From: Bacteroidia bacterium
GTDB taxonomy: Bacteria > Bacteroidota > Bacteroidia > AKYH767-A > OLB10
Direction: 5' to 3'
NCBI GenBank assembly: GCA_016788165.1
Contig: JAEUTH010000015.1
Span: 1 to 64,000, forward strand
Length of the DNA stretch: 64,000 nucleotides
The notes beneath the pieces were generated by a model that saw only the letters and a program-made list of their open reading frames with translations, was not told the DNA's origin and searched no databases. The translations under genes and the position numbers were made by a program. How positions within the stretch are numbered: the stretch's first letter is position 1; each line of letters opens with the position of its first letter. Positions 40,519 to 58,891 of this stretch are shown piece by piece.

Positions 40519-40556
40519 AAACAGCAACGGCTGCCCAAGGGCAGCCGTTGCTGTTT
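40519..40556 (+). terminator. Strong hairpin after efp
   Basis: There is a perfect 18-bp GC-rich inverted repeat (40519-40536 with 40539-40556) with a 2-base loop, 20 bases after the efp stop. Only three T follow, so it may act as an mRNA-stabilising hairpin as much as an intrinsic terminator. Confidence 0.75.
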
Positions 40557-40568
40557 CCACCGCCACCT

Positions 40569-40615
40569 CCTTTCAACTAACAACTAACAACTAACCCCCC
40601 TTTCAACTCTCAACT
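40569..40615. repeat. Tandem CAACTAA heptamers with flanking CTTTCAACT repeats
   Basis: CAACTAA is repeated three times without gap (40574-40594) and is followed by C-rich sequence and a second CTTTCAACT copy at about 40600. This is non-coding spacer between efp and the frameshifted gene. Such simple repeats are common spacer material in Bacteroidota; no function is assigned. Confidence 0.6.
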
Positions 40616-40676
40616 CCTTTTTTATCTATACCACTTCTAAAATCAAGTTTCCCTTAACCCTTTAATTTTATCTATT

Positions 40677-41034
40677 ATGAAAAAATTATCATTTGTGAAA
40701 AAATCACACACACACAACAATATTCAGCAGTTGTGCAAGTAAAATCTTATTTATTTTAATGCTGATGGCAAGGCAACTGCAAGGCCAACCGGCAACACTA
40801 AACCTTAATAACTTTAATTGCGATAACCCGCAAGCCGTTACTTTGCAATGTTACGATGCTACAGGCAGGGCAATGGATATACTGGCTGTAACCAAAGCAG
40901 ATAGCACTGAATATGGCACCTTGCTTTATATAGAAAAAACCAATCTTACTTACGATGGTTTGCTTTTGGTAAAAGTAATGTACCAGGGTTTTACCTTGGG
41001 TACTATTGGAGTACTAACCCTAAAAAACAAGTAA
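40677..41034 (+). pseudogene. Small secreted protein, frameshifted in its signal peptide (possibly phase-variable)
   Basis: An ATG at 40677 begins MKKLSFVKKSHTHNNIQQLCK and meets a TAA at 40740. One base later in another frame a hydrophobic stretch KILFILMLMARQLQGQ continues into a 91-residue mature part (from 40759) ending at 41034. Removing one base at the junction would restore MKK...CKK-ILFILMLMA, a good signal peptide. So the gene appears frameshifted by +1. A (CA)6 tract at about 40704-40715 lies inside the signal region; one extra CA unit would also restore an open frame throughout. The mature part (TLNLNNFNCDNPQAVTLQCYDATGRAMDI) has a beta-sandwich look with no known family. The T9SS gene follows after four bases. 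Confidence 0.6.
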
Positions 41035-41038
41035 GGCC

Positions 41039-42370
41039 ATGGAACGCATACTTACTTTGGCTATGTTGTTTTCACTAAACGGTATAGCACAGCCACAAAT
41101 TACATGGCTTAAATATTTGAATACATCTACAAATTCTAATACTTGTGAATCAATTCTACAATTGCAGGATAGTGGTTTTATTTTATCTTGCAGGTGGCCT
41201 CCGCAAAATGGATATGTTGCTCGTATTTATAAAACTAATAAATATGGTGATACCCTACATAGCGCATTAATAAACACTTGGTGTAATATTATTCAAACGT
41301 ATGATAAAAATTTTGTTTATGTAGGTGGCAACTTACTTCAAGGCCCAGGAAGTTTAACAAAAATTGACTCCAATTTAAACCAAATTTGGACGCAATCATA
41401 TCCACAATTTTTATCATTACGTTTAACCCTTTCCAACGACAGCGGCTTTATTTTAAATAGCAGCAGCACAGTAATTAAAACCGATAGCTTAGGTGTAATT
41501 CAATGGACGCAATCATTTATTGGCATCATACGTAAAGTAATACCCTGCAAAAATGGCGATATATTGGTAGTGGGCTATGGTGCCGGTTATAATGCAACCT
41601 ACAGGGCCATGCTACTTTCAGCAACTGGCCAATTATTATGGCAACGCCAACATGGTGTGGTAGAAGAAGATTGGGGCACCATAAAGGAATTTGGCATTAA
41701 CGATGCCGTAGAATTGCCCGATGGTAATTTTTTAGCAGCAAGTGGCAGCTACCATCCGCACTTTGGCGATAGTGCCGGTTGGGATATGATTAAGTTAGAC
41801 CGCGCCACTGGCGATACCCTACAAACCTACGTCTTTGATACCATTACCGGGTCACCGCAATATTTGATACACATGACGAATGCCAAAGATTCCAATATAC
41901 TAATATGTGCTGATGGGCGGTTAATAAAAATTAAACAAGACGGCAGTCTTATCTGGTATAAACATGCAGATTTTGAACCGTGGGATTTAATAAGTTGCAG
42001 CGATAATGGATTGGCTATAGCTGGTGTAAAATATACGTGGCTACCTGGTAGCGGTAATTTCAAAAAAAAATCAACCTACGCCAAATTAGACAGCTTAGGC
42101 AATATTTATAATTACCAGGGCATACCCTATATACAACCCCAATTGGTAAGTGTGTACCCCAACCCGGCAAGCAATCAATTAACAATTGATAATTTACAAT
42201 TAACAAATAAACCGTTTACCCTTACTGTATATGATGTTTTGGATAAAATGCACTTAACGCAAAATACCCATACCACAACAATAGATATCAGCACACTAAC
42301 ACCGGGCTTATACGTACTGCGTTTGCAGCAAGGTGATAAAATGTATTATGGCAGGTTTGTGAAAGAGTGA
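41039..42370 (+). CDS. T9SS type A sorting domain protein, beta-repeat type
   Basis: This is a 443-residue exported protein. The signal peptide is MERILTLAMLFSLNGIAQ. The body (about 20-360) carries loose repeats of the form D-S-G-F-I-L and W-x-x-x-x-x-G with INDAVELPDGNFLAASGSY, a delta-60/propeller-like pattern also seen in the 57293 gene. The C-terminal 75 residues are a T9SS sorting domain (VYPNPASNQLTIDNLQLTN ... GLYVLRL), so it should be surface-exposed or released. Function is unknown. Gene context: four bases after the frameshifted secreted-protein gene, suggesting one transcript. Confidence 0.82.
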   Translation: MERILTLAMLFSLNGIAQPQITWLKYLNTSTNSNTCESILQLQDSGFILSCRWPPQNGYVARIYKTNKYGDTLHSALINTWCNIIQTYDKNFVYVGGNLLQGPGSLTKIDSNLNQIWTQSYPQFLSLRLTLSNDSGFILNSSSTVIKTDSLGVIQWTQSFIGIIRKVIPCKNGDILVVGYGAGYNATYRAMLLSATGQLLWQRQHGVVEEDWGTIKEFGINDAVELPDGNFLAASGSYHPHFGDSAGWDMIKLDRATGDTLQTYVFDTITGSPQYLIHMTNAKDSNILICADGRLIKIKQDGSLIWYKHADFEPWDLISCSDNGLAIAGVKYTWLPGSGNFKKKSTYAKLDSLGNIYNYQGIPYIQPQLVSVYPNPASNQLTIDNLQLTNKPFTLTVYDVLDKMHLTQNTHTTTIDISTLTPGLYVLRLQQGDKMYYGRFVKE

Positions 42371-57292: not shown

Positions 57293-58891
57293 ATGAAATT
57301 GAGACATGTAATTGCATTAGTTTTTGTATTAACAATTAGCAAAACCTATGCACAACAAAGTTGGACCACACCACCCTTACAATGGGAGCAAAATTATGGA
57401 GGTACGGCAAACGACAGAGCAAATGATGTTATACCCACATCAGATGGTGGATTTATAGCTGTAGGCAATTCGATGAGTGATGATGTTGATCTTACCAATA
57501 ACTTTGGATTAAACGATGTTTGGGTAGTAAAAACCGATGGTAATGGACAGGTACAGTGGCAACGCAATTACGGTGGCGATGACGAAGATTTTGGTTTATC
57601 AATTGCTCAAACTTTTGATGGTGGCTATATTATTGGAGCCACTACATTTTCGAACAATAATAATGTAAGTGGCAATAATGGGTTTTCAGACTTTTGGGTT
57701 TTAAAAATTGATAGCGTAGGCGTTATTGAATGGTCGAAAGTTTATGGAGGCAGTTTATTAGAAAGTTTATTTCAGGTAAAACAATTACGCGATAGCAGTT
57801 ATGTGGCCGTAGGCAGTACCGATTCGAACGATGGTGATGTATCGGGCAACCATGGCGAATCGGATTATTGGGTGGTGCGGTTAAACTTAGCCGGTGATAC
57901 CATTTGGACACAATGTTATGGTGGACTAAAAACAGATGTTTGCCGCGATATAAGCCAATTGGTTAACGGCAATTTTGTGTTAGCCGGATATTCGAATTCG
58001 AACGATGGTGATTTAACCAGCAACAATGGTGGTTATGATTATTGGGTGCTACGCATTGATCATAATTTTAAAAACATTATTTGGCAATACAACTATGGTG
58101 GCAGTTATGATGACAGAGCCTATTCGTTAACCCTTAACTCCGCATTGGGATATTTAGTTATTGGTAGTTCGTATAGTAACGATATAAATGTATCAGGGCA
58201 TAGTGGTAGTGTGGGCCCAACGGGCAATGCCGATGTTTGGGCATTAAAACTTACCAACCTGGGCATAATTGACTGGGAAAATTCATTAGGCGGCTTAGCT
58301 GACGATTTTGCTTTTGATGCAGTACAATTGGCCGATAGCAGCTATACTATTGCAGGCTACACATCCAGCTTATTAGCAAATACCAGCCCCAATAACGGTT
58401 TAACTGATTATTGGTTGATTAATGTAAACCGTTTTGGAAACAGGCAATGGGGTATGGTTTATGGTGGCTCGAAGGCTGATTTTTGTTTTGCTATTGATAC
58501 CCTATCAAGTTTTACATACATTATAGGAGGTGGTTCTTTCTCAAACGACTCGGTTGTAGGTGGCAATTATGGCGGCAGCGATTATTGGCTGCTTAGATTA
58601 GACTCAGCAAAAAACACAACTGCTTTGCCTGATGTTTCGGCAGATGGAAATCAATTAACCATATATCCTAATCCGCTTCGTACACAATCTACCATATCAA
58701 TTAAAACCAACCACACCGATAAACAGTTGTTGAATATTTATAATAATATTGGTCAGATAATTAAATCAATTGATGTTACCGGTGTAACAAGCCTTGATAT
58801 CCATCGAAATAATTTTCAAGCCGGAGTTTATCACTACACACTTGGTTATGAAAATAAAATTTTAACGCGCGGTAAATTTGTTGTTGAATAA
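57293..58891 (+). CDS. Repeat-rich T9SS type A sorting domain protein
   Basis: This is a 532-residue exported protein. The signal peptide (ending near KTYAQ) is followed by about seven repeats of roughly 60 residues: W-x-x-x-Y-G-G-x-x-x-D, a V-I/P-T-x-D-G-G-F/Y-I-x-x-G segment, S-N-D-G-D-V, N-x-G-x-x-D-x-W-V-V-x-x-D-x-x-G. This is a beta-propeller-like, delta-60-type array. The last 75 residues (IYPNPLRTQSTISI ... AGVYHYTL) are a T9SS sorting domain. It is the longest cargo here with its own promoter. The ATG at 57293 begins the signal peptide; a TTG at 57287 is not needed. Function is unknown. Confidence 0.88.
   Translation: MKLRHVIALVFVLTISKTYAQQSWTTPPLQWEQNYGGTANDRANDVIPTSDGGFIAVGNSMSDDVDLTNNFGLNDVWVVKTDGNGQVQWQRNYGGDDEDFGLSIAQTFDGGYIIGATTFSNNNNVSGNNGFSDFWVLKIDSVGVIEWSKVYGGSLLESLFQVKQLRDSSYVAVGSTDSNDGDVSGNHGESDYWVVRLNLAGDTIWTQCYGGLKTDVCRDISQLVNGNFVLAGYSNSNDGDLTSNNGGYDYWVLRIDHNFKNIIWQYNYGGSYDDRAYSLTLNSALGYLVIGSSYSNDINVSGHSGSVGPTGNADVWALKLTNLGIIDWENSLGGLADDFAFDAVQLADSSYTIAGYTSSLLANTSPNNGLTDYWLINVNRFGNRQWGMVYGGSKADFCFAIDTLSSFTYIIGGGSFSNDSVVGGNYGGSDYWLLRLDSAKNTTALPDVSADGNQLTIYPNPLRTQSTISIKTNHTDKQLLNIYNNIGQIIKSIDVTGVTSLDIHRNNFQAGVYHYTLGYENKILTRGKFVVE

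Follow-up and report, generated by a model that had tools for sequence, protein, structure and literature searches.

A CA repeat within a shared signal-peptide leader: candidate slippage-driven phase variation of T9SS surface proteins in an uncultured Bacteroidota genome

When the signal peptide of a secreted protein lies one frame away from its start codon, is the gene broken, or is it a gene that may be switched on and off? The question is raised by a short locus in the window, a stretch of 64,000 nucleotides of contig C22 from an uncultured member of the Bacteroidota, where the ATG at 40677 opens the sequence MKKLSFVKKSHTHNNIQQLCK and, after 21 codons, runs into a TAA stop (40740-40742), and where the hydrophobic core of the signal peptide, SKILFILMLMARQLQGQ, and the mature part of the protein lie in the next frame, ending at the TAA of 41032-41034. 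The whole locus, 40677-41034, measures 358 bases (3 x 119 + 1). An earlier note, made from the letters alone, had described this arrangement, and the sequence confirms it in both respects; the (CA)6 tract that it placed at about 40704-40715 is likewise there, although one base further to the right, at 40705-40716. The start ATG and the signal core of the window copy are both intact, and in the assembled sequence this copy represents the off state. The next gene, here called B (the split gene being A), begins at 41039, four bases past the A stop, and its sorting domain scores above the curated cut-off, in keeping with its earlier description as a cargo of the type IX secretion system (T9SS). 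Throughout this work signal peptides were assigned by eye. The parts of the locus are collected in Table 1, and the reading favoured below, to which we give a probability of roughly 0.8, is that the locus belongs to a contingency family of T9SS surface proteins which would undergo slippage-driven phase variation behind a shared leader.

Table 1. Parts of the locus, in positions of the window.
Feature	Position	Strand	Basis or remark
Inverted repeat AGCAACGGCTGCCC..GGGCAGCCGTTGCT	40519..40556	.	BLAST match of the window to itself, inverted; probably a hairpin that terminates the elongation factor P gene upstream
Leader, conserved upstream part TATCTTTACCAC...CAAGTTTC..TTAACCCTTTAATTTTATCT	40600..40676	+	80-89% identity in about 19 copies, with near-invariant columns; presumed promoter and 5' UTR
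Start ATG and n-region in the frame of the tract, 21 codons and TAA (off state)	40677..40742	+	
(CA)6 putative slippage tract	40705..40716	+	n = 5 to 18 in paralogues
Constant part 3' of the tract and signal-peptide core (..SCASKILFILMLMARQLQGQ), in the frame of the body	40717..40788	+	Paralogue alignment; open in the frame of the body in long copies
Gene A, mature part, about 80 residues	40789..41034	+	Protein matches; dN/dS 0.13-0.17
Gene B, 443-aa secreted protein with T9SS type A sorting domain (PF18962 / TIGR04183)	41039..42370	+	

The sequence around the start of A is repeated across the genome. When positions 40600-41100 were searched against the window's own genome (3,343,951 bases, or 3.34 Mb, in 46 contigs), 23 matches were found, and about 19 of these sites are copies of a 200-base leader, mostly 77-91% identical to the window over its length, which spans about 40600-40790 and comprises a putative promoter, the ATG, the (CA)n tract and the signal-peptide core. 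Two further matches, on C28 and C33, are short and doubtful. The copies are named here after their contigs: C22 (the window), C18, C3, C10, C20, C15, C13 start (C13s), C13 end (C13e), C42, C8, C43, C5, C31, C37, C24 at 66 kb (C24a), C24 end (C24e), C39, C38 and C4. An element of the Bacteroidota type, resembling TAnnTTTg, may be present in the conserved part upstream of the ATG.

Each leader copy has a different chromosomal gene upstream and a secreted-protein operon, consisting of A and then B, downstream. The gene ahead mostly lies on the same strand; it is elongation factor P (EF-P) in the window, and by eye we take the genes ahead of other copies to be serine dehydratase, metK, an ABC-F ATPase, der and clpC. 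Since the similarity of the upstream flanks is confined to the 35-130 bases directly ahead of the leader, the copies represent separate chromosomal sites. The copies inspected, with their differing flanks and no transposase seen, give no indication of a mobile element. The hairpin at 40519-40556 (GGCTGCCC..GGGCAGCC, with GCAAC/GTTGC flanks) also precedes the leader copies of C10, C42, C43, C5 and C24 end, as if the terminator had travelled with the leader or were a genome-wide repeat.

The number of CA units varies from copy to copy. It is 5 in C18, C10 and C3 (the last with one CG), 6 in C22, C20 and C15, 7 in C13s (one CG), 8 in C24a, 9 in C13e and C4, 11 in C8 and C5, 12 in C42, 14 in C43, 15 in C31 (one CG) and C37, 16 in C38 and 18 in C24e, and the tract of C39 is interrupted, with one GA among its 10 units. 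Such tracts occur nowhere else in the genome: 86 overlapping matches to (CA)6 collapse into 15 tracts, all 15 inside leader copies, whereas about 0.6 tracts of at least six units would be expected genome-wide under a dinucleotide model of the window, so that their concentration in the leader goes beyond chance. The length differences among homologous copies, as seen between paralogues and not between strains, are concentrated in the tract, where, in this comparison of paralogues of one genome, indels follow the 2-base unit. Outside the tract, most indels between the ATG and the mature part are multiples of three (-18, -9 and -9), the others being single-base losses in C18 and C3 and, beside the tract, in C24a. 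Steps of two bases within the tract, together with mostly triplet indels outside it, are therefore the mark of a coding sequence that carries a slipping repeat.

The tract is so positioned that a change in unit number shifts the frame in which the following gene is read. The core, SCASKILFILMLMA, and the body lie in one frame wherever a copy keeps both, and in the standard leader this core and the mature protein are in frame with the start only if n mod 3 = 1. Where n is divisible by three, the standard leader ends in QLCK-stop (C22, C20, C15, C42, C31, C37 and C24e); where the remainder is 2, it ends in SYL(F/L)-stop or an equivalent (C10, C8, C43 and C5), and the same applies to C13s and C24a, which have one base fewer next to the tract. 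Only C38 and C39, two of the 15 assessable copies, are in phase: the former (n = 16) reads through as a single secreted ORF of 880 aa (MKNLSFIKKSHTHTHTHTHTTKISSCARKILFILILMAAGSFTHAQ...), and the latter is a 42-codon remnant. This proportion does not fall significantly short of one third (P = 0.08), but with only two copies in phase, and one of them a remnant, several members of the family may be dead. Taken together, the approximately 19 paralogous leaders, the range of n from 5 to 18 and the in-phase C38 lend strong support, at the level of sequence comparison, to the slippage-controlled reading that the earlier note had put forward.

A plain pseudogene, which that note had listed as an alternative, would not, if old, be expected to keep its body. 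The body of C42 is open for 893-899 codons and that of C24a for 1089-1092 codons though both copies are off, and this openness out of phase over 893-1092 codons disfavours plain, old decay in the long copies. Pairwise dN/dS values among the out-of-phase copies C42, C8, C43, C24e and C20 range from 0.07 to 0.35, and those of the window A body are 0.17 against C18 and 0.13 against C3 (86 codons); with such values against two paralogues, the window body is not an old pseudogene either. The coding region past the tract is intact despite the wrong phase, the exceptions being C18, C3, C5 and C39. Judged by these ratios, the out-of-phase bodies bear the signature of purifying selection at the protein level.

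It is nevertheless conceivable, if unlikely, that the window copy in particular is dying or dead, its A gene having lost a large body and been frozen out of frame, with only B, which has its own start and signal peptide, still of consequence and the tract a relic. The mature part of the window A, about 80 residues, aligns at 49-51% identity with the C-terminal 80 residues of the A translation of C42, which is 909 residues long; the window gene therefore represents an A without its large body, reduced to a signal peptide and this end. It has no match in Pfam or NCBIfam, a profile comparison of its end with the B sorting domains gave no support for a sorting domain, and its single-sequence fold is of low confidence (pLDDT 52). 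In keeping with a dying gene, the nearest paralogues, C18 and C3, lack both a standard start codon and the signal core, and the tract counts only 6 units, a length that would probably slip more slowly than the 11-18 units of other copies. The window copy, on the other hand, has kept its start and core, and its body differs from those of its paralogues mostly at synonymous sites, so that any decay must be recent. As to the closest paralogues themselves (C18, L009, about 900-1070; C3, L010, about 430-610), both retain the end of A and the start of B, and possibly only B is still made there. The B genes of C5 (L019, 6091-7274) and C39 (L024, 1-1208) are broken up by stops or across frames; some members of the family are thus decaying.

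Could the frames simply be wrong? The assembly is of a short-read type, paired contig ends share identical terminal 127-mers, and many breaks fall within the family: 30 of the 92 contig ends lie within 3 kb of some part of it, fifteen near the leader or A gene and fifteen near the end of B. The family parts at contig ends explain much of the fragmentation of this genome, and some copies are consequently incomplete or could be misjoined. The ends of three small contigs, C32, C40 and C41 (L105, L112 and L113), appear to be masked, since each terminal 127-mer is identical to its own reverse complement, the result that a run of N would give. However, the window copy lies well inside a 168-kb contig, tracts of 10-36 bases fit within a normal read length, and 13 of the 15 assessable copies, each with flanks of its own, are out of phase. 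The last point also disfavours the sequencing error that had been considered for the window, and an artefact in tract lengths or frames is regarded as highly improbable.

Translation might instead bypass the tract altogether. Initiation at the internal ATG at 40759 had been offered as another way out, and is disfavoured because ATA stands in place of this ATG in roughly half the copies, which is what one would expect if the codon simply encodes a hydrophobic residue; as a family-wide start it was rejected, the ATG not being conserved and most of the signal peptide being lost from such a product. A related explanation holds that the short frame across the tract encodes the functional product, a leader peptide whose stop position tunes reinitiation at internal ATGs or the translation of B. 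QLCK-stop is indeed the commonest phase (seven of 15 assessable copies, to which two cut copies with n = 9 may be added), copies of the other off phase that keep the internal ATG have a stop overlapping it (TAATG), and B starts 4-6 bases past the A stop in C22, C18, C3 and C42. This explanation is nonetheless considered very unlikely, for the length of the leader peptide is not constant, a start at 40759 would yield a protein without its full signal peptide, and the body is kept open in the frame of the signal core. The spacing of the genes (in C38, B starts about 40 bases before the A stop) suggests that translation of B may be coupled to that of A, in which case the two would be switched together.

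The products of the long copies are of differing kinds. Among C42, C38 and C24, the A body of the first resembles beta-propeller repeats (an NCBIfam SBBP-type match, below the cut-off), that of the second has a NosD-like match and a weak match to the T9SS sorting domain, below the curated cut-off, and that of the third is Ig-like and carries a T9SS sorting domain above the curated cut-off. All complete B genes examined (window, C38 and C24) have a T9SS type A sorting domain above the curated cut-off, and the window B body has a weak beta-propeller-like match. From these domains, both secretion and display at the surface would be expected to proceed through T9SS. Elsewhere in the window (57587-58180), a repeat-type protein in a frame of 538 codons is 35% identical to the long A of C42; the genome scan gave no CA tract of at least six units there.

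B genes are conserved at their ends and diverge in the middle, as in the window and C31, which share 84% nucleotide identity at the end and 48-59% in the middle. Two copies, moreover, look like recombinants. C15, near a contig end, diverges from other A bodies after about 70 codons. On the minus strand of C13 start (L014), near 250-350 and likewise close to a contig end, a C42-type mature beginning is joined at a shared TTACGATG to a window-type A end, and A continues in one open frame into B. Conserved leaders and B ends around divergent middles, these chimeric copies and the fact that a single long copy is in phase would also suit a silent archive of cassettes, in which one or a few copies are expressed, the leader serves mainly as a homology anchor for body swaps, and the frame of silent copies is irrelevant. 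Each copy, however, has its own promoter-like region and start, and out-of-phase bodies are under selection at the protein level, so that an archive of this kind is rather improbable.

According to the favoured reading, that is, slippage-driven phase variation, a shared leader has been placed before about 19 operons of two genes each, whose products are secreted surface proteins delivered by T9SS. Translation would begin at the ATG 5' of the CA tract, and only where the unit number leaves a remainder of 1 on division by three would the core and the mature protein follow in frame, other lengths leading to one of the two early stops. As the frame is set by the unit number, slipped-strand mispairing within the tract, which presumably takes place in living cells, should turn the A protein of each operon on or off independently of the others, B possibly being switched along with A by translational coupling, and different cells would then present different surface sets. 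Such variation might serve in the escape from phage, predators or immune recognition, or in changing adhesion. Whether the family as a whole acts in this way, with one start cassette copied before about 19 operons, a combinatorial T9SS surface set per cell, operons switched as units and bodies exchanged by recombination between conserved ends, is a broader proposal to which we assign about even odds.

How widespread is the arrangement? Relatives of the A and B proteins are present in all 23 other genomes of the family, whereas the leader is absent from these 23 apart from a single chance-like match of 40 bases. CA tracts of at least seven units were found in three of the 23, and none of the four tracts concerned lies at a signal-peptide start. 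The pattern ATGA-N(2-30)-(CA)8 occurs in one of 42 genomes of the order, namely that of the window, and in four of 395 genomes in a sample of the phylum, three of which, besides that of the window, have a single match each; no other of these 395 genomes has a multicopy ATG-(CA)8 leader. An exact-pattern scan of wider genome contigs gave no match, near records possibly falling outside such a scan. The genus is represented by the window's genome alone, a comparison of EF-P (74% identity) gives uncultured Bacteroidota MAGs as its nearest named relatives, and none of 79 loci fetched around relatives has an orthologous operon behind elongation factor P.

The switching of surface proteins by repeat slippage is textbook knowledge for host-adapted pathogens, Helicobacter, Neisseria and Haemophilus among them, and here a family-wide candidate for such a system sits in an uncultured member of the Bacteroidota. 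If switching is confirmed, it would extend slippage bet-hedging to the type IX secretion pathway and would indicate strong fluctuating selection on the cell surface, be it by phage, predation or a host. In a literature search of limited coverage, at the level of titles and abstracts, neither phase variation of T9SS nor repeat-driven phase variation in Bacteroidetes was found. Genomes of Bacteroidetes strongly avoid dinucleotide repeats (-4.00 in the corresponding table), and long repeats correlate with host dependence (PMC4060949), which makes the CA-tract family more telling as an exception.

Phase variation of the cell surface is nevertheless familiar within the same phylum, where in Bacteroides it has been reported as DNA inversion (PMC11868660). 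The invertase systems of capsule promoters and of SusC/SusD families resemble the present case in phylum and in acting at the surface (PMC11868660), but rely on site-specific inversion, whereas repeat slippage is proposed here; a slippage family on T9SS cargo would thus differ from the Bacteroidota switches in the literature consulted for this comparison, all of which are DNA inversions. In mechanism, the proposed system is closer to the repeat genes of Neisseria, Haemophilus and Campylobacter, in which slippage of a tract inside or close to the coding region changes the frame (PMC11868660, PMC6321876), although those involve other repeat units and gene families, and the organisms that carry them are host-associated.

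The closest known geometry is found in the Hop family of Helicobacter pylori. Besides oipA, the Hop-family genes sabA, babB and hopZ carry CT repeats in the code for their signal sequences. The oipA gene is switched by CT repeats within the region for its signal peptide (PMC10564699), and as the geometry is the same, this gene is the closest known case. As in the Hop family, a dinucleotide tract is embedded in the part of a surface-protein gene that encodes the signal peptide, close to the start (for oipA, PMC10564699), the number of repeats decides in which frame the rest of the signal peptide and the body are read, and several paralogues have tracts of their own. The two differ in the repeat, which is CA here and CT in the Hop genes, and in the cargo, the Hop proteins being beta-barrel outer membrane proteins in contrast to the T9SS cargo predicted here for a member of the Bacteroidota; unlike the Hop genes, moreover, those described here form two-gene operons, in which one leader has been copied to about 19 loci ahead of differing bodies.
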